A DNA stretch of 64,000 nt, taken from assembly GCA_016705685.1 (NCBI GenBank), contig JADJLB010000010.1, positions 650,501-714,500 on the forward strand, in the 5' to 3' direction. Positions 186-30,159 of this stretch are shown in pieces. This stretch comes from Propionivibrio sp. Lineage in GTDB: Bacteria; Pseudomonadota; Gammaproteobacteria; Burkholderiales; Rhodocyclaceae. How positions within the stretch are numbered: position 1 is the stretch's first letter; each line of letters begins with the position of its first letter. The notes beneath the pieces were generated by a model. That model was given only the letters and a program-made list of their open reading frames with translations. It had not been told where the DNA came from and ran no database searches. A program made the translations under genes and the position numbers.

Positions 186-1085
186 TCAGGATGGAAATAC
201 GCCCGTGGACAGATAACGATCGCCGCGGTCGCAAACGATGGTTACGATAATGGCATGTTCGACTTCGCGCGCCAGGCGCAAGGCAATCACCAGCGCTCCT
301 CCGGAAGAAATTCCGGAAAATATTCCCTCCTCGCGAGCCAGCCGCCGTGTCATGGCTTCGGCATCCCCCTGCGCGACCGACTCAATGCGATCGACGCGCG
401 AACGCTCGAAAAATTTCGGCAGATAGGCTTCCGGCCATTTCCGGATTCCGGGGATCTGCGAACCCTCTTCCGGTTGGCAGCCAACAATGCAGATGTCTTG
501 ATTCTGCTCCTTGAGATAGCGCGAAACGCCCATGATCGTCCCGGTCGTCCCCATGCTGCTGACGAAGTGCGTCACGCGGCCTTGCGTTTCACGCCAGATC
601 TCGGGCCCCGTGCCTTCGTAATGTGCCAGCGGGTTATCCGGGTTGGCAAACTGATCGAGAATGATCCCCGTGCCTTCGTTCTGCATTCTTTCGGCCACAT
701 CGCGAGCCAGTTCCATGCCGCCGCTCTTAGGCGTGAGGATCAGTTCTGCGCCGAATGCGCGCATCGTTTGGCGGCGTTCGATGCTCTGGTTCTCCGGCAT
801 GACCAGAAGCATGCGATAGCCGCCCATCGCCGCGGCCATCGCCAGGGCGATACCGGTATTGCCGGAAGTTGCCTCGATCAGCGTATCGCCGGGTTTGATC
901 TCGCCGCGCTGCTCGGCACGACGGATCATCGACAGCGCCGGCCGATCCTTGACCGACCCGGCCGGGTTGTTGCCTTCGAGTTTGGCCAACACGACATTGC
1001 CGCGCGCCTCGCATTCGGCACCGGGCAAGCGTTTGAGGCGGACCAGGGGGGTGCCGCCGACAAAATCCTCAAGCGTCTTATACAC
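186..1085 (-). CDS. cysM: Cysteine synthase B
   Basis: 299-residue PLP enzyme making L-cysteine from O-acetylserine and sulfide (CysM members also accept thiosulfate). The N-terminus [13 protein letters not shown], the PLP lysine in SVKDRP (Lys46) and the substrate loop TSGNTG are all visible. The C-terminal ISSGGA motif binds the cofactor side. The length is the usual one for CysM, and the short C-terminus favours CysM over CysK. The start is GTG at 1085, overlapping the hldD stop by 8 bases, so translation is probably coupled. Position after hldD and before an exonuclease gene is the common betaproteobacterial order. Confidence 0.93.
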
Positions 1086-2073
1086 GAGCGTTCATCCATT
1101 GAACGTACTGCGGCACACCCTGCTCGACGCTGGCAAACGGAGCGTCGTAACCCGCCTTGCGCAGCAAGGTGAGGTCGGCCTGGGTAAAACTCTGGTACTT
1201 GCCCCTGAGCGCATCGGGGAAGGGAATATATTCAATCAGGCCCAGCCCGATGAGCTCGGCCAGCGGCAGTGCGGGCTCCCCGGCCAGTGCGCGACAACTG
1301 TTCACGTTGGCCACGGCCAGTTCGTTGAAGCTTTGAGCACGGCCGGTACCCAGGTTGAATATCCCGGATTTTTCCGGGTGATCGAGAAAGTGGAGGTTCA
1401 CCGCCGCCACGTCGCCGACAAAAACAAAATCTCGCTTCTGCTCGCCATTGGCATAGCCATTGCAGCCTTCGAACAGCCTGACCTTGTGCTCGGAACGAAA
1501 CTGGTTGAAATGGTGAAAGGCGACCGAGGCCATGCGTCCCTTGTGCGCTTCGCGAGGGCCGTAGACGTTGAAATAACGGAAGCCCACGATTTGCGACGAT
1601 ACCTTCGGCATACGCTGACGCACGACCTGATCGAAAAGGAATTTCGAATAGCCATAGACGTTGAGCGGCGCCTCGAACGAGCGCTCTTCCCGGAACACGT
1701 TGCTCCCGCCATAGGTCGCCGCGCTCGACGCATAGAGGTATGGCACGCCTTGATCGATGCACCAATCGAGAATCCCGAGTGAGTAACGGAAATTGTTCTC
1801 CATCATGTAACGGCCATCTGATTCCATCGTGTCGGAACACGCACCTTGGTGGAAGATGGCGTCGATCCCGCCGTTGAACTGCCCGGCCAGCAGCCGACCA
1901 AGGAACTCGGTTTTATCGATGTAATCGACGATTTCGCAATCGACCAGATTCTTGAACTTGTCGGCACGCGTCAGGTTATCGACGGCAATGATCCCGGTTA
2001 CCCCGCGCTCATTCAGCGCCTTGACAAGATTTGAACCGATAAAGCCGGCCGCACCAGTGACTATCGTATACAT
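1078..2073 (-). CDS. hldD: ADP-L-glycero-D-manno-heptose-6-epimerase
   Basis: 331-residue short-chain dehydrogenase/reductase epimerase that converts ADP-D-glycero-D-manno-heptose to the L-glycero form used in the LPS inner core. The NADP-binding motif [10 protein letters not shown] sits at residues 6-15. The catalytic Ser is in the SSAATYG segment and the Tyr/Lys pair in YGYSK. Family landmarks such as NVYGPRE and the MASV segment are present, and the length is full. The start lies 8 bases after the rfaE1 stop. Cytoplasmic; it acts after the RfaE1 kinase encoded just upstream. Confidence 0.95.
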
Positions 2074-21187: not shown

Positions 21188-22063
21188 ATGAACAGGGTTG
21201 CCCAACGCAACCTGGCCTACGAGACCGTAGCACAGGCCATCCGTTTCATTCGTCGGCATGCGACCCGACAACCGGAGCTCGACGAGATCGCCGCTCATGT
21301 CGGCCTCAGTTCATATCACCTCCAACGCATCTTCCGCGCCTGGGCCGGCATTTCACCCAAACGTTTTTTGCAATTCCTGACCAGGGAACACGCCCTGACG
21401 CTATTGCGCCAAAACAACGACATCCTCGCCACCGCTCATGAAACCGGATTGTCGGGACCCGGCCGCCTGCATGACCTGATGGTCAATTGCGACGCGGTAA
21501 CGCCGGGCGAAGTGCGTGCGCTGGGCGACAGTTTGACAATCTCCTACGGTTTCGGTCCGACGCCGCTGGGTCGCGTCATTGCCGGCATGACAGCGCGCGG
21601 CCTGTGCCATCTGGAATTTATCGACGACGACCCTGGTGGCCTGGCGACGCTACGCGGCGAGTGGCCGCTGGCGACGCTGCTTCACGACGACGAAGCGTTA
21701 GCGGCCATCATTGACAAGCTGTTCCCGGATGGCAATTGCCACCGCCCACCTCCGCTGCTGCTCAGAGGAACGAATTTTCAGATCAAGACCTGGGAGGCGC
21801 TACTGAAGATTCCGAGCGGCCAAATCGTCTCCTATCGGACTCTGGCCGGATTGGCAGGCACTCCTCGTGCCCATCGCGCCGTCGGTTCGGCGCTGGCGCA
21901 AAACCGCATCGCCCTCCTCATCCCCTGCCACCGCGTCATCCGTGAAAATGGCGACAGCGGTCAATACCGCTGGGGGAGCGAGCGAAAATCGGCGCTGATT
22001 GCCTACGAATCGGCACTGGTCCGACAAAGAGGCAGACCGGGCGAAAACCTTGGCCGCGACTAG
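21188..22063 (+). CDS. Ada-like AraC-HTH / O6-alkylguanine-DNA methyltransferase
   Basis: 291 residues. The N-terminal AraC-type helix-turn-helix region (ELDEIAAHVGLSSYHLQRIFRAWAGISPKRF) is joined to a methylated-DNA-cysteine methyltransferase domain with the acceptor cysteine in LIPCHRVI and upstream KIPSGQIVSYRTLA. The N-terminal zinc/phosphotriester domain of E. coli Ada is missing, so it repairs O6-alkylguanine but would not be activated by phosphotriester methylation (inference). ATG 21188 is chosen over a GTG nine codons upstream. Its TAG stop shares the bases CTAG with the converging ilvN stop. Confidence 0.88.
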   Translation: MNRVAQRNLAYETVAQAIRFIRRHATRQPELDEIAAHVGLSSYHLQRIFRAWAGISPKRFLQFLTREHALTLLRQNNDILATAHETGLSGPGRLHDLMVNCDAVTPGEVRALGDSLTISYGFGPTPLGRVIAGMTARGLCHLEFIDDDPGGLATLRGEWPLATLLHDDEALAAIIDKLFPDGNCHRPPPLLLRGTNFQIKTWEALLKIPSGQIVSYRTLAGLAGTPRAHRAVGSALAQNRIALLIPCHRVIRENGDSGQYRWGSERKSALIAYESALVRQRGRPGENLGRD

Positions 22064-22404
22064 TGGAAAAACTCCTCCAGCCGCTCGAACACCTCATGCT
22101 CCGCGCCATGGCGGCGTAGTGACAGCACGTCTTCCAGTTTTTCGATTTGCTTGATCATTTGTTCCAGCCGGGCGTCTTCGTTAACCAGCAACCAGATTCG
22201 GCTGATCTCGCTGCTGGTTTCGCCACTGGACTTGAGGCCGTTTTTTTCATAGCCGACCGGCATACAAACGATGCCCTCGACGTTGTAGGCACGGCGCGAG
22301 AACATGCCGACAACATGCGACATCACGCCTGCATGGTTATTTACATCAAGCTCAAGCACGGTGCTGGCCAGCGCCCGGTTTTCTGTTTTTGAATTGGCAT
22401 TCAT
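22060..22404 (-). CDS. ilvN: Acetolactate synthase small (regulatory) subunit
   Basis: 114-residue ACT-domain subunit of the IlvN type (short, unlike the roughly 160-residue IlvH). VLELDVNNHAGVMSHVVGMF and RRAYNVEGIVCMP are the ACT core; IWLLVNEDARLEQMIKQIEK follows. It confers valine feedback on the catalytic subunit. The ATG at 22404 has GGAGG six bases upstream; a TTG two codons earlier is less likely. It starts 2 bases after the ilvB stop. Confidence 0.93.
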   Translation of the reverse strand: MNANSKTENRALASTVLELDVNNHAGVMSHVVGMFSRRAYNVEGIVCMPVGYEKNGLKSSGETSSEISRIWLLVNEDARLEQMIKQIEKLEDVLSLRRHGAEHEVFERLEEFFH

Positions 22405-22406
22405 AT

Positions 22407-24089
22407 TCAACCTCCGATCATGTCTTTGTTGGCTGCGCCTGGCGCCACCATGGGTAAAACCTGCTCATGCCTGTCAATGCTGGCATGGATCAACACCGGG
22501 CCGGGCAAGGACAACGCCGCCCGCAGCGCCGAACTCGGGTCGCCCGCATTGTCGAGGTCAAGGGTCTGCCAGCCAAAGCCTTCGGCAACCTTGATGAAGT
22601 CCGGCATGCCCCTGAATTTTGAAGCGAAAATACGCTCGCCATAGAACATGGTTTGCTGCTGGAACACCAGGCCCAACGATGCATTGTTCATCAGCACAAC
22701 TTTGACGTTGGCCACTTCTTCCGCCGCCGTGGCGAATTCCTGCACGTTCATCAATATGCTCCCGTCGCCAGTGAAGCAAACGACCGTACGCTGCGGTTCG
22801 GCAAGCGCTGCACCGATCGCCGCCGGCAACCCGAATCCCATCGTCCCCAATCCGCCCGAAGTCAGCCATTGGCGCGGTCGTCGCAGCGGGTAGGCTTGCG
22901 CGACCCACATCTGATGCTGTCCGACATCGGTGCTGATCGTCGCTTCGTCATCGAGGCAATCGGCCACGGCGCGTATCAGGCCGTAAGGCATGCGTGGATC
23001 GTCGATGCCCGGCATGCGCAACGGATGCGTCGCCTTCAGATCGGCCACGCGCGCCAGCCAGGGCTTGCGCAGAATGGCCTCGACCTGTGGCACCAGTTGC
23101 CCGAGAACGGCCTTGACGTCACCGGCGATACCGACATGCGCCGTCTTGATCTTGTCGAGTTCGGAAGGGTCGATGTCAATGTGGATGATTTTGGCTTGCG
23201 AACAGAAAGCCGCCACCTTACCCGTCGCCCGATCGTCGAAGCGTGCACCAACGGCAATCAGCAGATCGCACTCATCGAGCGCCAGATTGGTGCAGCGCGC
23301 GCCGTGCATGCCAAGCATTCCGAGCGATAGGGGATGATCAACCGGCATCGCTCCCAACGCCATCAGCGTCATCACGCTCGGCAAGCCGGCCTTTTCTGCC
23401 AGGGCCACCGCCGACCCTGAGGCACCGGAGTGAACGACCCCTCCGCCCAGATAGAGAATGGGGCGTGCGGCGCCGTTGATCATCGCCGCCGCACGGGAAA
23501 TCAGCACGGCATCCGGTGCCGGTGCCGGATCGGACGCGCCGGGCGCAGGCCAGTCGCTTACTTCAATGGACTGGTTCTGCACGTCCTTGGGAATATCGAC
23601 AAGCACCGGGCCGGGGCGTCCGGAGGCGGCCAGGCGGAATGCGTGCGGAATAACCTCAAGCAACTCCTCGGCCGAACCCACCAGAAAATTATGCTTGGTG
23701 ATTGGAATCGTCAAGCCATAGGTGTCGACTTCCTGAAACGCATCGGTACCGATCATCGATTTGGGCACCTGCCCGGTAATCGCCACCAGCGGAATCGAAT
23801 CGAGCTTGGCGTCGGCAATGGCCGTCAACAAATTGGTTGCGCCGGGGCCCGAAGAGGCCATGCAGACCGCGACTTCTCCGCTGGCCCGGGCGATGCCCTG
23901 TGCGATGAAGCCGGCGCCCTGTTCATGACGTGCAAGTACATGATGGATCTGGGTCGACTGCGACAGGGCGTCGTAGATCGGCAGAATCGCGCCGCCGGGA
24001 ATGCCGGACAATAGTCGCACGCCCTGCCTTTCAAGCAGGCGCACCACGATTTGCGCACCGGTGAGGATTTCGCTTCGTTTGCTGGTCAT
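22407..24089 (-). CDS. ilvB: Acetolactate synthase large (catalytic) subunit
   Basis: 560-residue thiamine-diphosphate enzyme making acetolactate/acetohydroxybutyrate for valine, leucine and isoleucine. The activating Glu is in ARHEQGAGFIAQG. The ThDP-binding motif runs from GDGSILMN to MNN near residue 460. An FAD-binding central domain is present. The start is the second ATG of AAGGAGATGTTCATG, which has the better SD spacing. Together with ilvN it forms an ilvBN pair behind a valine-rich leader and terminator, which suggests attenuation. Confidence 0.94.
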   Translation of the reverse strand: MTSKRSEILTGAQIVVRLLERQGVRLLSGIPGGAILPIYDALSQSTQIHHVLARHEQGAGFIAQGIARASGEVAVCMASSGPGATNLLTAIADAKLDSIPLVAITGQVPKSMIGTDAFQEVDTYGLTIPITKHNFLVGSAEELLEVIPHAFRLAASGRPGPVLVDIPKDVQNQSIEVSDWPAPGASDPAPAPDAVLISRAAAMINGAARPILYLGGGVVHSGASGSAVALAEKAGLPSVMTLMALGAMPVDHPLSLGMLGMHGARCTNLALDECDLLIAVGARFDDRATGKVAAFCSQAKIIHIDIDPSELDKIKTAHVGIAGDVKAVLGQLVPQVEAILRKPWLARVADLKATHPLRMPGIDDPRMPYGLIRAVADCLDDEATISTDVGQHQMWVAQAYPLRRPRQWLTSGGLGTMGFGLPAAIGAALAEPQRTVVCFTGDGSILMNVQEFATAAEEVANVKVVLMNNASLGLVFQQQTMFYGERIFASKFRGMPDFIKVAEGFGWQTLDLDNAGDPSSALRAALSLPGPVLIHASIDRHEQVLPMVAPGAANKDMIGG

Positions 24090-24147
24090 GAACATCTCCT
24101 TCTGATTACTGATGCTGTTAGCGGCCATTCCGGGAGGTCCTAAATGC

Positions 24148-24181
24148 AAAAACCCCGCTCGGTTTGCACCGGCGGGGTTTT
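24148..24181 (-). terminator. ilvBN attenuator terminator
   Basis: The 10-base arm AAAACCCCGC (24149-24158) pairs with GCGGGGTTTT (24172-24181), and an inner CGGT/ACCG extends it around a 4-base loop with one bulge. On the minus strand the hairpin runs into TTTTTG. It lies between the leader-peptide stop (24210) and the ilvB start (24089), the position of an attenuator. Confidence 0.85.
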
Positions 24182-24209
24182 GGAATCTTCTGTCGTTTTA
24201 CGCTTCGAC

Positions 24210-24371
24210 TTACTTTCTTCCTGACCTGGGCGGCGCATGGGTTGATACGCGTACTACACGTACGACGCGTACTACCGGTACTGCACCGCGGGCAATGACG
24301 AACGCTGCCGTAGCCGCCGCCAGAGCGATAAGCGTTGCGAAAGCAGGTAGGTCAAAAGCAGCCATGGTCAT
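24210..24371 (-). CDS. ilvBN leader peptide (valine-rich, IvbL-like)
   Basis: 53 codons from ATG 24371 (or 51 from the in-frame ATG 24365) to TAA at 24210-24212. Near the end the peptide reads VPVVRVVRVVRV: eight valines in twelve residues, seven encoded by GTA and one by GTC. It is followed 28 bases later by a strong hairpin with a T-run, then by ilvB. E. coli ilvBN has an analogous leader, IvbL, with runs of valine and a VRVV motif. A role sensing charged tRNA-Val is inferred from this. The start has no strong SD, so the exact N-terminus is unsure. Confidence 0.75.
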   Translation of the reverse strand: MTMAAFDLPAFATLIALAAATAAFVIARGAVPVVRVVRVVRVSTHAPPRSGRK

Positions 24372-24633
24372 TCAGTCAAATTCGTAAACACACGGTCGAA
24401 TTAGAAACGAGTACGACGAAAAACACAAGCCCTATTTATAAGCTTGGTGGAAATAATTCACGCGACGATAGTCTCCGGAAGAGTTGCCAGAAACTGTTTA
24501 ACGGAATGTTGTCTAAGCAAAATGCGCTGCGTTATTCAACCTCAAACCAGAATGCCATGAGCCCGAATAAGGTGGATCGAACGAAACTTGTCCGGCTGAC
24601 CGATCTGCCAAACGTCGGTCAGGATGGTCAGCG

Positions 24634-25197
24634 ATGACGGAACTCTACATCAGCACCGACGTCGAGACCGACGGGCCGATCCCGGGACCGCATTCGATGT
24701 TGAGCCTCGGATCGGCAGCCTACACGGCCGATAAGCAAATCCTCTCGACTTTCAGCGCCAACCTTGAAACGCTTCCCGAGGCCAGCGCTCACCCCAAGAC
24801 AACCGCATGGTGGGCAACACAACCGGATGCCTGGGCGGCCTGCCGCAAGGATCTTGAATCACCTGGCGCGGCCATGATGCGCTATGTGGCCTGGCTCAAG
24901 TCGCTGCCCGGTCGCCTTGTATTCGTCGCTTACCCGGCAGGTTTCGACTTCACCTTTGTCTATTGGTATTTGATCCGCTTTGCCGGCGAAAGCCCCTTCA
25001 GCTTTTCCGCCCTGGACATGAAATCATTCGCCATGGCGCATCTCCGCAAAGACTACCGCGACATCACGAAAACCAATATGCCCAGCCATTGGTTCGACGC
25101 GCTGCCGCATACGCACGTCGCGCTGGACGATGCCATCGAACAGGGCGCGTTGTTCTGCAACATGCTCAACGAGAATCGTGCAATTGACCGAACATGA
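24634..25197 (+). CDS. DnaQ-like 3'-5' exonuclease
   Basis: 187-residue DEDDh exonuclease. The first motif is [20 protein letters not shown] with the Asp/Glu pair at about residues 9 and 11. The middle Asp is in YPAGFDFTF, and the last motif is [11 protein letters not shown] with the catalytic His and Asp. No polymerase or other domain is attached, and the length suits small oligoribonuclease/RNase T-like proteins. Substrate unknown. It is divergent from the ilvBN leader and followed by a GST gene 35 bases later. Confidence 0.8.
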
Positions 25198-25232
25198 GTA
25201 TTCGGAATCGATAACCATAAATAGGAGACGCC

Positions 25233-25871
25233 ATGCTGCTCATTGGAATGCTTGACTCGCCTTATGTTCGCCGCGTGGCGATCTCGCTTCAACTGCTCGG
25301 CCTGAACTTCGAACACCGCTCGATCTCCGTGTTCAGCACGTTTTCCCAGTTCCAGCAGATCAATCCGGTGGTCAAGGCCCCGACGCTGGTCTGCGATGAC
25401 GGTGAAATCTTGATGGATTCAAGCCTGATTCTCGAATACGCCGAAGCGCTGGCCGGCCCTGGAAAAAGTCTGTTGCCCACTAACGTTTCCGAGCTTCAGC
25501 ACAGCCTTTGTGCCATCGGTCTGGCACTCGCCGCATGCGAAAAAAGCGTACAGATCATTTATGAGCGGAACTTGCGGCCGGCCGAGAAGCAGCATGAACC
25601 CTGGGTCGAGCGCGTGCGCGGTCAACTCCTGGCGGCCTTCGGAGCACTTGAGAAAGGACTGCAGCGCCGACCGTTGGCTTGCAACAGTACACGTATCGAC
25701 CAGACGGGTATCAGCGTGGCGGTGGCCTGGCATTTCACGCAACAGATGCTTCCTGAAATCGTCCCGGCATTGAACTACCCGGCCTTACGCGAATTCTCAG
25801 GAAACGCCGAAACCCTGCCAGAATTCGTCGCGGCGCCCCACGGTTCGGGCACCTATCGCCGTACGCAATAA
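25233..25871 (+). CDS. Glutathione S-transferase family protein
   Basis: 212 residues. The N-terminal thioredoxin-like domain starts MLLIGMLDSPYVRRVAISLQ, with the glutathione-binding proline in VKAPTLVCDDG and the conserved acidic-Ser pair in LMDSSLILEYAE. An all-helical C-terminal domain follows. The Ser of SPYVRR is the likely catalytic residue. A good SD (AGGAG) lies 7 bases before the ATG. Physiological substrate unknown. Confidence 0.85.
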   Translation: MLLIGMLDSPYVRRVAISLQLLGLNFEHRSISVFSTFSQFQQINPVVKAPTLVCDDGEILMDSSLILEYAEALAGPGKSLLPTNVSELQHSLCAIGLALAACEKSVQIIYERNLRPAEKQHEPWVERVRGQLLAAFGALEKGLQRRPLACNSTRIDQTGISVAVAWHFTQQMLPEIVPALNYPALREFSGNAETLPEFVAAPHGSGTYRRTQ

Positions 25872-26063
25872 TTTTTGCGAGTCAAAGCAGTCCGGCCCAC
25901 AGGCGCGCCTGAACGCCCAAGTACACGGCCTTCTTCAGGCCGACAGGCGTGTCAGGCAATGGCGATGCTGCTCCTGCGGCATACCGTCGCGAGATCGCCT
26001 ATCAGCGGGCATTTCGGGGCAATGCCGTGGCTGACAACACTCGCTGACCGATACGTCTGCGCT

Positions 26064-26238
26064 TCAGCCCAAGGCTTTATCCACGACTTCGAAGACATCG
26101 CGCGACAATCCTGCGTGTTGCCTGAGCGACTCCAGCACCGCGCGCGCGTGACGCTGGTGCTCGGCATCGAATCTCTTCCAGCGATCGAAACTGCGTGCCA
26201 TCCGCGCGGCGATCTGCGGATTGATATGCCTCAGCGAA
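26064..26238 (-). pseudogene. Detached copy of the pepN 3' end
   Basis: On the minus strand, downstream of the MFS gene, a short frame encodes HINPQIAARMARSFDRWKRF and then a tail ending VFEVVDKALG and a stop. This matches the last 50 or so residues of the complete PepN encoded at 27496-30159 (VNPQVAARMARSFDRWKRF, ending VFEVVSRALAP). The core is identical over 59 bases. There is no upstream PepN sequence and no start codon, so it is a fragment, not a gene. It suggests a tandem duplication or an older second pepN that was deleted. Confidence 0.85.
26154..26212 (+). repeat. 59-base direct repeat, copy 1 (pepN tail fragment)
   Basis: Bases 26154-26212 are identical to 27589-27647, in the same orientation, 1.4 kb apart. 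Similarity continues on both sides with mismatches. The repeat is the coding sequence of the PepN C-terminal helix region. Confidence 0.92.
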
Positions 26239-26302
26239 AGACCAAGTTTGTTTTCGTGTCCGCTGGCGTTCGGTTTCAGCGCTGCAGTCGGCGGATGTGC
26301 GG

Positions 26303-27496
26303 CTAAGACATTACGGAATGGCGACCGGATACTTTGAAAGCATAAAGTGCTGCGATCAGCCCCGCGGCCAGCAGCAAGCCCGACGGTAGAAATGTCATCA
26401 GGCCTTGCAGCTGCGGACTGTGTGGCAGCAACGTGCTGACTAACAGGATCCGGCCAAAGGTCGCCAGCGCGAGCACCGCGAAAAAACTGCCCATGAACAG
26501 ACCTTCCGCACCACGCGTCCCCGACGTCGAGGCGTACTCCATCAGGCCAGCAAGAGCAGCGGCCCAACCGACACCGCTCAGCACTTGCATCACCACCAGC
26601 GATGGCAAGCTGTCGACTACCGCTGACGCGTAGCTGCCAAGCGCTGTCAGAAAAATGCCCGCGGCTGCGACGGTCAGCATGCCGAGGCGCTTCACCAGCG
26701 CGCCGACGGCAGGCAGAGCGGCAAAAAAGCCGACCCACAGCAAGGGCATCAACCAGGGCAGGTTTTCCTTTGCCGCATGCGCCAGATACTGCGGCCCTGC
26801 ATTGACGAAGGCATGCAACTGTAAGCCGCCAGCTGCCAGCACCAGGACCGACAGCGCCGGTGCATACACGGCAAAGGCGACGGGTTGCAGCGCCTCGACA
26901 CGGGTCTCAGGGCCGGCAGCCATGACCGTGCGCATCAGTACGACAACGGCAATCAACAGCGTGACGGCAGCAAGCACAAACGGCAAACGCGGATCGACGC
27001 CCTTGAGCAGCGTGCCGACGTAGGGCGACAAGGCCGCCGCAAGCGCCATCCCCGCGGCGTACCAGCGAACCAGACTGCCCTGCTGCGCCGCCCTGGCACG
27101 CTTGGCAAGCAACACCACGGTTGGCGCGCGCAGGACCGAGGCGCTGAGTACCCATATGAATAAAACAGCAATAAGCAAGCTCGGCGAGACATTTCCGGAC
27201 ATTGGCAGCAACACGAAGGCGAAGGTTGAAATGATCGTGAGCCACAAGAGCAGGCGGGCCAGCTTGCGGTAACCATCGGTTAGGCGATCGGCAACTAGCG
27301 CAAAGGCAATGTCCATGACGGCAAAAATCAGCTGATCTGCCATCAGCAGGAGCGGCAGCCATGCTCTTGCCATATGGGCCGATGCAAGCAGCTCCGGCAG
27401 ATAGATCACATACACCGTCCAGCCCAGCGTGAAGAAGAACTGCACGCTGGCCAGAGCCGGACCTCCGGCCGCTTTGGGTTCGCCGGCCGAAACCAT
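26303..27496 (-). CDS. MFS transporter
   Basis: 397-residue membrane protein with about twelve hydrophobic helices. ALVADRLTDGYRKLARLLLW resembles the cytoplasmic loop 2-3 motif of the major facilitator superfamily (D-R-x-x-G/R-R/K). Substrate not predictable. The ATG at 27496 shares one base with the pepN stop (TGATG), so it is coupled to pepN. The open frame extends far upstream inside pepN and that part is not real. It is followed by a fragment of the pepN 3' end, so this gene is bracketed by pepN sequence. Confidence 0.8.
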   Translation of the reverse strand: MVSAGEPKAAGGPALASVQFFFTLGWTVYVIYLPELLASAHMARAWLPLLLMADQLIFAVMDIAFALVADRLTDGYRKLARLLLWLTIISTFAFVLLPMSGNVSPSLLIAVLFIWVLSASVLRAPTVVLLAKRARAAQQGSLVRWYAAGMALAAALSPYVGTLLKGVDPRLPFVLAAVTLLIAVVVLMRTVMAAGPETRVEALQPVAFAVYAPALSVLVLAAGGLQLHAFVNAGPQYLAHAAKENLPWLMPLLWVGFFAALPAVGALVKRLGMLTVAAAGIFLTALGSYASAVVDSLPSLVVMQVLSGVGWAAALAGLMEYASTSGTRGAEGLFMGSFFAVLALATFGRILLVSTLLPHSPQLQGLMTFLPSGLLLAAGLIAALYAFKVSGRHSVMS

Positions 27497-30159
27497 CACG
27501 GCGCCAGTGCCCTGCTGACGACCTCGAACACATCCCCCGACAATGCAGCCTGCTGCTGCAAACTTTGCAACGCCGCGCGCGCATGGCTCTGGTGCTCGGC
27601 ATCGAATCTCTTCCAGCGATCGAAACTGCGTGCCATCCGCGCGGCGACTTGCGGATTGACCGGATCGAGCGCGGCGATCTGCCCGGCAAGGAAGCGATAT
27701 CCGCTGCCATCGGCGGCATGAAAATGCCGGTGGTTGGCGCCGAAAGTGCGTAGCAGGGCGTAGACCTTGTTCGGATTGCGGATGTCGAAAGCCGGGTGAC
27801 GCGTCAGACTTTCCACCAACGCCAGAGTGCCCGGCACTCGACTGCTGGCCTGCACCGAAAGCCATTTGTCGACCACCAGCGCTTCGTCTTGCCAACGCGC
27901 GTAAAAGGCGGCCAGCGCGGCTTTGCCCGGCTCGCAGGGTCCGTTCCTTTCGGCCGGCGCATTGGCCAGCACGGTGAGCGCGGCAAACTGGTCGCTCATG
28001 TTGTCGGCGCTGTCGAATTGCCGATGCGCCAAGGTGAGGTACTCCAGCGAATCGAGTTCGTTCAGATAGCCGAGGCAGAGATTGCGCAGCCGGCGACGGC
28101 CCGCCCCGGCCGTATCCGGTTGATATGGCCCGATCGGGGCAAGCGTGGCGTAAATTCGGGCGAGTTCGTTTTCCAGACCGCTCGCCAAATGGCGCGCGAG
28201 GCCGGTTCTGGCCGCATGCAGCACCTCCGGATCAACCACTTCCATCTGCTCGGCCAGCGTTGCCTCGCCGGGTAGCGTCAGCGTTTCGGCGATGAACGCC
28301 GGATCGCCCGTGCCGAGCAGCACTTTGCGTGCGGCTTCAATCACGCTGTCCGGCCACGTTACGGTTTCGCCACGCGCCAAGTCAATGACGGCCACGCGGA
28401 TCAGTCGACCAAAGAGCCGCTGGCCGGCTTCCCAGCGGTTGAAGGGATCGCTGTCATGGGCCAGCAAGTGGACGAGATCGGCTTCGCTGTAGTCGTGTTC
28501 AAGCACGACCGGGGCCGAGAAATTGCGCAGTAGCGAGGGCACGGGCGCCACCGCGATGTCGTCGAAGACGAAGACCTGCTCCGGTTCGACAAGGTGCAGG
28601 ACGCGCGTGCACGATCCCGTCTTCGCATCTGCCGTTGCCTCACTGCCCAGATCGAGATCGGCGCCAGTCGGGCCGACCAGGCCGACGGCGACAGGTATCA
28701 GGTAGGGCGCTTTCTCCGCCTGATCGGGTGTAGGCGCACAACTTTGCGTCAGCGTCAGCGCGTAGCGCCTCTGCTGCGCGTCGTAATCGCCACGTGAAGT
28801 CACCTTCGGCGTACCCGCCTGGCTGTACCAGGTCATGAACGGCGTAAAGTCGAAAGCGGCGGCATCGCCCATCGCCACAACGAAATCGTCGCAGGTGACC
28901 GCCTGTTCGTCGTGGCGTTCGAAGTAAATATCCATGCCTCGCCGGAACGCCTCCGTGCCGATCAGCGTGCGGATCATGCGCACGACTTCGGCACCCTTTT
29001 CATAAACGGTGGCCGTATAGAAATTGTTGATTTCCAGATAGCTAAACGGGCGCACCGGATGCGCCATCGGGCCCGCATCCTCGGGAAACTGGGCGGCGCG
29101 CAGGCCGCGCACCTCGCGAATCCGCGCGGTTTCGCGGCTGTGCATATCGGCACCGAATTCCTGATCGCGAAAGACGGTCAGCCCTTCCTTCAACGAAAGC
29201 TGGAACCAGTCGCGGCAGGTTACGCGGTTGCCGGTCCAGTTGTGAAAGTATTCGTGGGCCACGACGCGGTCGATATTCTCGAAATCGGCATCGGTCGCCA
29301 CGTCGGCGCGCGCCAGCACGTACTTGGTGTTGAAGATGTTGAGCCCCTTGTTTTCCATGGCGCCCATGTTGAAGTCGCCGACGGCGACGATCATGTAGTG
29401 GTCGAGATCGCATTCGAGGCCGAATGTCTCCTCGTCCCACTGCATCGCTTTCTTGAGCGCCGTCATGGCGTGGCCGCATTGGTCGAGCTTGCCGGGTTCG
29501 ACGTAGATGGACAGCTTGACCTCGCGTGCGGATCGGGTGCGATAAGTGCTGCGCAGCACATCGAGCTTTCCCGCAACCAGCGCGAAAAGGTAACAGGGCT
29601 TCCTGAAGGGATCCTCCCAAGTGGCATAATGGCGGCCTTCCGCCTCGTCGCCCGCATCGACCGGATTACCGTTGCATAACAAGAAAGGAAAATCGGCTTT
29701 GTCGGCATGAATGGTGACGGTATAACGCGCCATGACGTCCGGCCGGTCGATAAACCAGGTGATGCGGCGAAATCCCTGTGGTTCGCACTGGGTGAAATAG
29801 CCGTCCCGGCTTCGATATAAGCCCGAGAGCTGCGTATTCTTGTCGGGCTGGATGGACACCCGGGTTTCCAGCGTGAAGCGTTCCGGCAAACCGTTGACGA
29901 CCAGCCGATGCTCACTCAATTGGTAGGCGTCTGCTGGCAGCAGGCGGCCATCGACCTTGACCGAATGGGTCTCCAGTTCTTCGCCATCGAGCACCAAGGG
30001 ATATTCACCCGGAACGGCGGGATTGCGCACGCAATTCAGGGTGGCCACAACCCAGGTTCCGGGGGCGCATATATCGACATCCAGATGAACGGCGTTGACC
30101 AGATATGCTGGCGGCGTGTAGTCCCTGAGTCGTACGGGAGCGGGAGTATCGGTATGCAT
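27496..30159 (-). CDS. pepN: Aminopeptidase N
   Basis: 887-residue M1 zinc metallopeptidase of the bacterial PepN size class. The exopeptidase motif GAMEN is present. The zinc site is HEYFH at 302-306 plus Glu325 (HExxH, 18 residues, then E). The C-terminal helical domain ends in VFEVVSRALAP. The ATG at 30159 begins the family N-terminus (HTDTPAPVRLRDYTPPAYL); the upstream extension of the frame is unconvincing. It degrades peptides from the N-terminus in the cytoplasm. Followed by a coupled MFS gene. Confidence 0.95.
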   Translation of the reverse strand: MHTDTPAPVRLRDYTPPAYLVNAVHLDVDICAPGTWVVATLNCVRNPAVPGEYPLVLDGEELETHSVKVDGRLLPADAYQLSEHRLVVNGLPERFTLETRVSIQPDKNTQLSGLYRSRDGYFTQCEPQGFRRITWFIDRPDVMARYTVTIHADKADFPFLLCNGNPVDAGDEAEGRHYATWEDPFRKPCYLFALVAGKLDVLRSTYRTRSAREVKLSIYVEPGKLDQCGHAMTALKKAMQWDEETFGLECDLDHYMIVAVGDFNMGAMENKGLNIFNTKYVLARADVATDADFENIDRVVAHEYFHNWTGNRVTCRDWFQLSLKEGLTVFRDQEFGADMHSRETARIREVRGLRAAQFPEDAGPMAHPVRPFSYLEINNFYTATVYEKGAEVVRMIRTLIGTEAFRRGMDIYFERHDEQAVTCDDFVVAMGDAAAFDFTPFMTWYSQAGTPKVTSRGDYDAQQRRYALTLTQSCAPTPDQAEKAPYLIPVAVGLVGPTGADLDLGSEATADAKTGSCTRVLHLVEPEQVFVFDDIAVAPVPSLLRNFSAPVVLEHDYSEADLVHLLAHDSDPFNRWEAGQRLFGRLIRVAVIDLARGETVTWPDSVIEAARKVLLGTGDPAFIAETLTLPGEATLAEQMEVVDPEVLHAARTGLARHLASGLENELARIYATLAPIGPYQPDTAGAGRRRLRNLCLGYLNELDSLEYLTLAHRQFDSADNMSDQFAALTVLANAPAERNGPCEPGKAALAAFYARWQDEALVVDKWLSVQASSRVPGTLALVESLTRHPAFDIRNPNKVYALLRTFGANHRHFHAADGSGYRFLAGQIAALDPVNPQVAARMARSFDRWKRFDAEHQSHARAALQSLQQQAALSGDVFEVVSRALAP
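27589..27647 (+). repeat. 59-base direct repeat, copy 2 (inside intact pepN)
   Basis: Identical to 26154-26212. This copy lies in the 3' end of the complete pepN gene. Confidence 0.92.

Follow-up and report, generated by a model that had tools for sequence, protein, structure and literature searches.

The E. coli operon for acetolactate synthase (AHAS) I, ilvBN, is reportedly under cyclic AMP control besides attenuation, to judge by the title of Friden et al. 1982. Comparative work on proteobacterial attenuators is attributed to Vitreschak and colleagues, and may cover part of the leaders considered here. The attenuation of E. coli ilvBN is described in the parts of PMC6123439 and PMC1183508 on which we draw, and the layout reported below matches that description. 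According to the same part of PMC6123439, putative leader peptides precede BCAA genes across Gram-negative species. In the leu leader of Salmonella the codon used for control is CUA (Carter et al. 1986, as discussed in the cited part of PMC1183508). In Corynebacterium, the ilvBNC attenuator, or ilvB-II motif, consists of a BCAA-rich uORF and a terminator before ilvB (PMC10272879, in the part cited).

How does the DNA upstream of ilvBN in Propionivibrio sp. compare with these systems? We analysed a stretch of 64,000 nucleotides (the window), in which a sequence-only reading had proposed a valine-rich leader peptide and an attenuator in front of ilvBN. Our literature search on ivbL in betaproteobacteria found no paper, a wider one on attenuators of branched-chain amino acid genes in these bacteria yielded a single review, no title on this group stood among the matches listed, and the main text of PMC2965389 contains no occurrence of ‘ilv’. 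As far as sequence can tell, the element in the window is well supported as an IvbL-type attenuator, of a known kind, from a branch not recognised by the leader models now in use. Its mechanism is ordinary; the interesting part is the choice of codon.

The leader and its operon

All features lie on the minus strand of the window, in the order leader ORF, valine run, terminator, AAGGAG, ilvB and ilvN (table 1). Both gene products score above the cut-offs of NF006016 (PRK08155) and NF006036 (PRK08178), which we take to be AHAS I models, and so belong to AHAS I (IlvB/IlvN); the IlvB shares 82% identity with its counterpart in Candidatus Accumulibacter regalis. The AAGGAG stands between the terminator and the ATG of ilvB at 24089.

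Table 1. Features of the ilvBN leader region and operon (positions are those of the window).
Feature	Position	Strand	Remarks
putative −35 element, TTGTGT	24423..24428	−	17 bases from the −10 element
putative −10 element, TCTAAT	24400..24405	−	predicted; kept in relatives, mostly as CTCGTTTCTAAT
leader peptide ORF	24210..24365	−	51 aa plus stop (TAA, 24212–24210); 53 aa from the alternative ATG 24371
segment 1, CGGTGC	24283..24288	−	immediately 5′ of the valine run; pairs with segment 2; predicted fold
control codons	24246..24281	−	8 Val (7 GTA, 1 GTC) in 12 codons: GTA CCG GTA GTA CGC GTC GTA CGT GTA GTA CGC GTA
segment 2, GCGCCGCCCAGG	24225..24236	−	Ala-Pro codons and the next bases; partner is segment 1 or segment 3
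segment 3, CCCCGCCGGTGC	24166..24177	−	terminator 5′ arm and antiterminator 3′ arm
segment 4, ACCGAGCGGGG	24153..24163	−	terminator 3′ arm
intrinsic terminator with T run	24148..24181	−	CCCCGCCGGTGC-AA-ACCGAGCGGGG-TTTTT; from sequence and folding
ilvB, acetolactate synthase I large subunit	22407..24089	−	NF006016 (PRK08155), 999 bits, cut-off 870
ilvN, acetolactate synthase small subunit	22060..22410	−	NF006036 (PRK08178), 142 bits, cut-off 128

The leader frame has two in-frame ATGs, and it is at the one at 24365 that the relatives align. Neither in the window nor in 14 relatives did inspection by eye find a clear Shine–Dalgarno sequence ahead of this start. The valine count given in the sequence-only reading, eight codons in 12 with seven of them GTA, proved exact, coordinates included. 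The run is followed by Ser-Thr-His and then by the Ala-Pro codons GCGCCG (24236–24231). Not one of 2000 dinucleotide shuffles of a 332-base region reached eight valines in 12 codons of an open frame (mean 3.2). In the 41 long ORFs of the window GTA accounts for 97 of 1170 valine codons (8.3%), and given this background the probability of at least seven GTA among the leader's eight valine codons is 2e-7.

The strong terminator hairpin said to precede ilvB was also found, between the leader and ilvBN, by both sequence and RNA folding. A consensus terminator scan did not list it, probably because of its unpaired A.

Where might transcription of this leader begin? Of 26 beta loci, 20 carry the pattern TTGnnn-N16..18-TnTAAT upstream of the leader, most of these 20 belonging to the genus of the window; it occurs in 1.1% of mononucleotide shuffles. 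A consensus promoter scan returned no site in 23600–24700, a result that says little on the start of ilvB.

Conservation among relatives

Across the 59 genomes compared, ilvB genes at least 67% identical to the window's were confined to its family; outside that family, 24 genomes of the order gave best matches of 42–47% identity. We collected 37 upstream regions. Only the 33 with the terminator pattern searched for entered alignment A1, so that the terminator core common to A1 is partly a selection. A Tepidiphilus region (L020), with its own terminator, joined later and brought the leaders to 34; excluded were L102 (no leader), L105 (a run of N) and L019 (an enzyme of the 48% type). These 34 leaders, from Rhodocyclaceae, seven Enterobacteriaceae, an Opitutaceae and a Tepidiphilus MAG, hold from 5 to 11 valines in 12 codons.

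From them we built the covariance model R1, limited to the terminator pairs because the enteric segment 2 is misplaced in alignment A2. Run on 249 genomes of the family, R1 found a match at E ≤ 0.001 in 147. Its best 90 places form our family set (81 from genomes outside the training set, 9 from training genomes), and all 90 adjoin a downstream AHAS I ilvB, 66–100% identical to the window's, the identity covering 51 aa only in the case of L253. At least six valines in 12 codons of an open frame were counted in 84 of the 90 leaders, compared with 0.33% of shuffles, and at least five in 88, compared with 4.9%, which leaves two below five. The comparison of relatives proposed in the sequence-only reading thus finds the valine run conserved; the lack of conservation that would have told against that reading did not appear. 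At class level R1 matched in 53 genomes, and IlvB stood behind 8 of the 29 loci inspected; the model is unspecific at weak scores.

As a control we examined ilvI-type paralogues, 20 in all, each from a different genome of the family. At least six valines were found upstream of one, at least five upstream of two and the terminator pattern upstream of none of the 20. Several of these upstream regions (L349–L368) hold a frame with a hydrophobic, V-rich tail, for example KRIVVFVVV; such frames are perhaps the antisense of a neighbouring gene.

Is the leader translated? In 15 leaders of the window's lineage (the window and 14 relatives), with leader starts chosen by a rule of our own, the average N-terminal dN/dS before the first conserved valine is about 0.5, which speaks for translation.

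Some individual loci deserve separate description. A single arginine codon lies inside the valine run in 82 of the 90 family leaders, often as GTA CGC GTA, which makes the palindrome TACGCGTA; some family leaders form a TACGC...GCGTA hairpin, and the enteric leaders keep the arginine, not the palindrome. One genome (G008) carries an ilvB copy with a leader (L093) and also a second AHAS I-like ilvB (67%; L102, contig C43), which has neither leader nor terminator pattern and lies, by eye, behind a rhodanese-like gene. A non-proteobacterial locus, that of the Opitutaceae MAG (L018), has an AHAS I-like ilvB of 63% identity together with a valine leader and a matching terminator; either the whole cassette was transferred horizontally or it is contamination. 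Two loci of family f130 (L181 and L200) combine an ilvB 44–49% identical to the window's with valine leaders of the form VVVVVVLC..RCRRD, and the attenuator may therefore be wider than E. coli-type AHAS I. At L194 (G652:C182) a valine-rich, ivbL-like leader (VIAVVVVSVVVRVRLSP, then TAG CGGGTT) with a terminator directly precedes not ilvB but a 397-aa MFS-like transporter ORF (269..1462, minus strand; Bcr/CflA-like by eye), which, from its sequence context, is possibly a valine-controlled transporter.

Alternative RNA pairings

What other partners are available to the arms of the terminator? The hexamer GCGCCG of segment 2 has two partners of the same letters, the CGGTGC upstream (pairing 1:2) and a CGGTGC in the terminator 5′ arm (pairing 2:3). 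When the window leader is folded without its terminator, 24236–24231 pair base for base with 24283–24288. At least four of the six segment 2 bases pair with upstream leader RNA in 27 of 30 ribosome-free folds, four of the 34 leaders having been left out for want of a hexamer.

Stalling was simulated by masking the ribosome footprint and folding the RNA of the 34 leaders. With the stall inside the valine run, segment 3 pairs with free RNA 5′ of it in all 34 (9–14 pairs at the best stall); with the ribosome at the stop codon, the terminator forms in all 34 (8–12 pairs). The Escherichia leader behaves likewise. A stall on the last valine codon leaves fewer 2:3 pairs (8 rather than 10 in the window, down to 0 elsewhere), as do stalls on valine codons beyond the run, and when the ribosome sits on the stop codon, segment 3 of some leaders is still paired upstream, by up to seven pairs in L103. 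At equilibrium (MFE) the terminator mostly wins despite the stalled ribosome, in the Escherichia leader too. Since the terminator is mostly the more stable, the switch must be kinetic, with timing deciding the outcome.

A duplex scan gave the Ala-Pro segment as the best partner of segment 3 in 27 of the 34 leaders, and a place in or before the valine run in the other seven. Four of the 90 family leaders lack parsable segments; in the remaining 86 the 2:3 duplex has a mean z of −2.2 relative to dinucleotide shuffles, with 53 leaders at 5% or less and 33 that fail to beat 95% of shuffles. A separate test on these 86 found six of six pairs for the segment 2 hexamer in 65, and in 10.7% of shuffles. 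Because that test picks the best-pairing hexamer, covariation was judged on an unselected alignment. In the MAFFT alignment of 33 leaders the six pairs of the core helix are paired in 96.4% of cells; the mean of shuffled controls was 93.0%, none of 500 was as high, and slid versions gave at most 60.1%. The variable core pair is G-C in 15 leaders, A-U in 13 and G-U in five with zero mispairs, a compensatory change. Both sides change in only one of the six core pairs, and its A-U cells come from the window's lineage and so represent few events. The Tepidiphilus (CCGGAGGG:CCCTCCGG) and Opitutaceae leaders keep the 2:3 helix with other letters.

Segment 2 starts a median of 9 bases past the last valine codon, a spacing at which a ribosome stalled in the run would leave it free and a ribosome at the stop would cover it. 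On its sequence, the Ala-Pro ending of the peptide is best read as an RNA constraint. The folding energy of the whole leader is hardly better than that of shuffles (z −1.5); since the switch depends on local alternatives, this quantity is uninformative. The mutually exclusive hairpins that the sequence-only reading had proposed to look for are present in silico, as 1:2, 2:3 and 3:4 pairings placed for control by a ribosome.

A probable ribosome-mediated attenuator and its alternatives

We consider it very probable that the region attenuates transcription through a translating ribosome, with charged tRNA-Val as the signal and ilvBN as the target. The sequence elements, their conservation and their capacity to pair are observed; from these we infer the use of the promoter, translation of the leader and the response to starvation, as follows. 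RNA polymerase would start 5′ of the leader, and a ribosome would follow on the leader ORF. With Val-tRNA ample, the ribosome would reach the stop at 24210 and cover segment 2, whereupon the 3:4 terminator would form and ilvBN would go untranscribed. With Val-tRNA short, the ribosome would stall in the GTA run and keep segment 1 away from segment 2, which, being free, would pair with segment 3 before segment 4 exists, and transcription would enter ilvBN. In the absence of translation 1:2 would form and the terminator would work. The attenuation by charged tRNA-Val put forward in the sequence-only reading gains support, in silico, from the conserved valine run, the terminator and the alternative pairings.

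Could the hairpin instead be the ordinary terminator of some other transcript, the valine frame being accidental and the ilvB promoter lying downstream? The weak translation signals of the leader would fit, and 21 of the 29 class-level R1 loci inspected are indeed terminators without IlvB behind them. The conserved valine run, its frame, the putative promoter and the alternative pairing nevertheless all disfavour such an accident, which we regard as highly improbable. Another kind of RNA sensor, for example a riboswitch or T-box, seems scarcely credible. A ppGpp riboswitch class is reported for ilvB in Firmicutes (PMC10272879, in the part cited), but no Rfam family was found at the leader when 22000–28000 was searched with E up to 5, the sole match lying elsewhere (22022–22097, E 4.1, far below the gathering score), and the coding run and the attenuator geometry account for the region.

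Choice of the valine codon

If a ribosome-mediated attenuator senses valine here, why should it do so through GTA? In the 90 family leaders GTA makes up 463 of 750 valine codons (62%), followed by GTC (193), GTT (51) and GTG (43). In the ilvB genes behind these leaders, in the parts retrieved, it makes up 86 of 3470 (2.5%), with 231 GTT and 56% GTG. The seven enteric leaders have GTG 34 times, GTC 29 times and GTA twice. GTA is decoded by the UAC anticodon only and GTC by GAC only, while GTG is decoded by both UAC and CAC; the genome of the window has one tRNA-Val gene each with UAC, CAC and GAC among its 42 tRNAs. Tentatively, and with considerable doubt, we suggest that the sensor codon tracks the tRNA-Val set, the leaders using those valine codons that are read by one isoacceptor. 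Where tRNA-Val(CAC) is present GUG would be shared and leaders would move to GUA (and GUC); where it is absent GUG would serve.

This prediction (with CAC, GTA plus GTC and avoidance of GTG; without CAC, GTG) was fixed before six further leaders were considered. Four behaved as predicted, one tied and one failed. With CAC present, GTA:GTG was 4:0 in G595, 4:1 in G649 and, weakly, 2:1 in G532; without CAC it was 1:3 in G482. The tie is G487 (2:2; CAC present, genome 58% complete) and the failure is G499, at 3:0, where an intact CAC gene was looked for and not found. On contig C67 of G499 (L343, 665–714) a tRNA-Val(CAC)-like gene is present in its 3′ half only, the 5′ half being absent, and is not called by ARAGORN; it might be a decaying tRNA and so a recent loss. 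Among the leaders known before the prediction, G533 has CAC and a ratio of 4:2, and no CAC was found for G437 (0:8), G393 (0:3), G593 (2:5), G396 (0:5), G652 (2:3, the leader before the transporter), the seven enterics or the Opitutaceae MAG, these last eight also having more GTG. More GTG is found as well in G513 and G610, two genomes with an incomplete tRNA set. Tepidiphilus (G670) forms a second exception: its leader is rich in GTA, yet its 1.8-Mb MAG yielded no CAC.

With one value per family, 6 families against 9, a one-sided permutation test of codon choice against CAC presence gives p = 0.003, from a small sample of families that share history, with G499 counted as an exception and Tepidiphilus left out. 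The absences of CAC are themselves uncertain, since the tRNA pattern search missed a true CAC gene in G660 that BLAST and ARAGORN found. Pattern search and BLAST agree on absence in G393, G593, G396, G437, G652, G499, G670 and G666; the pattern alone was used to judge absence in six of the seven enterics, in G482 and in G669, the Opitutaceae MAG. The link between codon and tRNA tends to hold between families, with exceptions, and is a lead, not a proof.

A competing explanation is that GTA is preferred for RNA structure rather than for decoding, in that it keeps the switch foldable: a run rich in GTG would find a partner in segment 2 or in the C-rich arm of the terminator, and GTA with CGC builds the local TACGC...GCGTA hairpin. 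This is quite possible, although we stop short of calling it probable. When the run is recoded in silico with the valine usage of ilvB, its pairing with segment 3 goes from −13.5 to −18.9 kcal/mol, and all-GTG gives −21.6; moreover, the codon preceding the conserved arginine is GTA in 80 of 82 leaders, and the core most often seen is GTA CGC GTA (58 of 79). However, GTT avoids pairing with segment 3 too (−14.0) and is commoner than GTA in the ilvB genes (231 versus 86), yet it supplies only 51 of the 750 leader codons to GTA's 463. Structure alone does not account for the ninefold excess of GTA over GTT in leaders, and GTA is enriched at every position from −5 to +5 around the arginine. In favour of structure, recoding with GTT loses the self-structure of the run (−6.1 as against −10.1).

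The further suggestion of the sequence-only reading, that GTA ties sensing to one isoacceptor, therefore stands only in part. GTA is indeed read by one of the three tRNA-Val, and the association holds across families at the p value given above; on the other side, only four of the six advance predictions succeeded, and RNA structure explains part of the preference. The simpler argument that GTA is rare and therefore sensitive is weak alone: under selective charging a little-used isoacceptor would stay charged unless scarce (PMC1183508, in the part cited). If the isoacceptor reading is true, one attenuator family spread over many lineages would serve as a natural experiment in the selective charging of tRNAs, and if the link to tRNA genes holds, a preference among synonymous control codons could be tested in lineages that gain or lose one tRNA gene.

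Comparison with known systems

How much of this was already within reach of existing models? At E 0.1, PF08049 (IlvB_leader) and NF007579 both fail to match the leader of the window and two further leaders of the family; the Escherichia leader L015, as a control, matches both. This fits the earlier remark that such leaders are rarely annotated. The present family adds a conserved leader peptide, missed by current models, to the Rhodocyclaceae and their relatives, and offers a route to its annotation.

The comparison with E. coli was made on seven enterics, Escherichia sp. (L015) among them, rather than on E. coli K-12 itself. Shared with the window are an AHAS I operon, a valine run with a central arginine and Ala-Pro after the run. 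The enteric terminator is nearly the same as the window's: six enteric loci read ACCCCGCCGGCGCAAACCGGGCGGGGT, and the seventh, L015, differs from this by one base. The 2:3 pairing occurs at the same place. The differences lie in the peptide: the window leader has 51 aa compared with 32 in the E. coli type, it has an extra Arg-rich tail, and its valine codons are GTA where the enteric ones are GTG and GTC.

The Corynebacterium ilvB-II motif, likened here by its description (PMC10272879, in the part cited), resembles the window in its BCAA-rich uORF, its terminator and the ilvB downstream, but it belongs to another phylum and to the operon ilvBNC, and is described within the genus Corynebacterium. 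The Salmonella leu leader resembles the window's in using a rare synonymous codon as sensor (as discussed in the cited part of PMC1183508). It differs in that it concerns leucine and another operon, whereas in the window the codon is GTA, the use of which goes with tRNA gene content.
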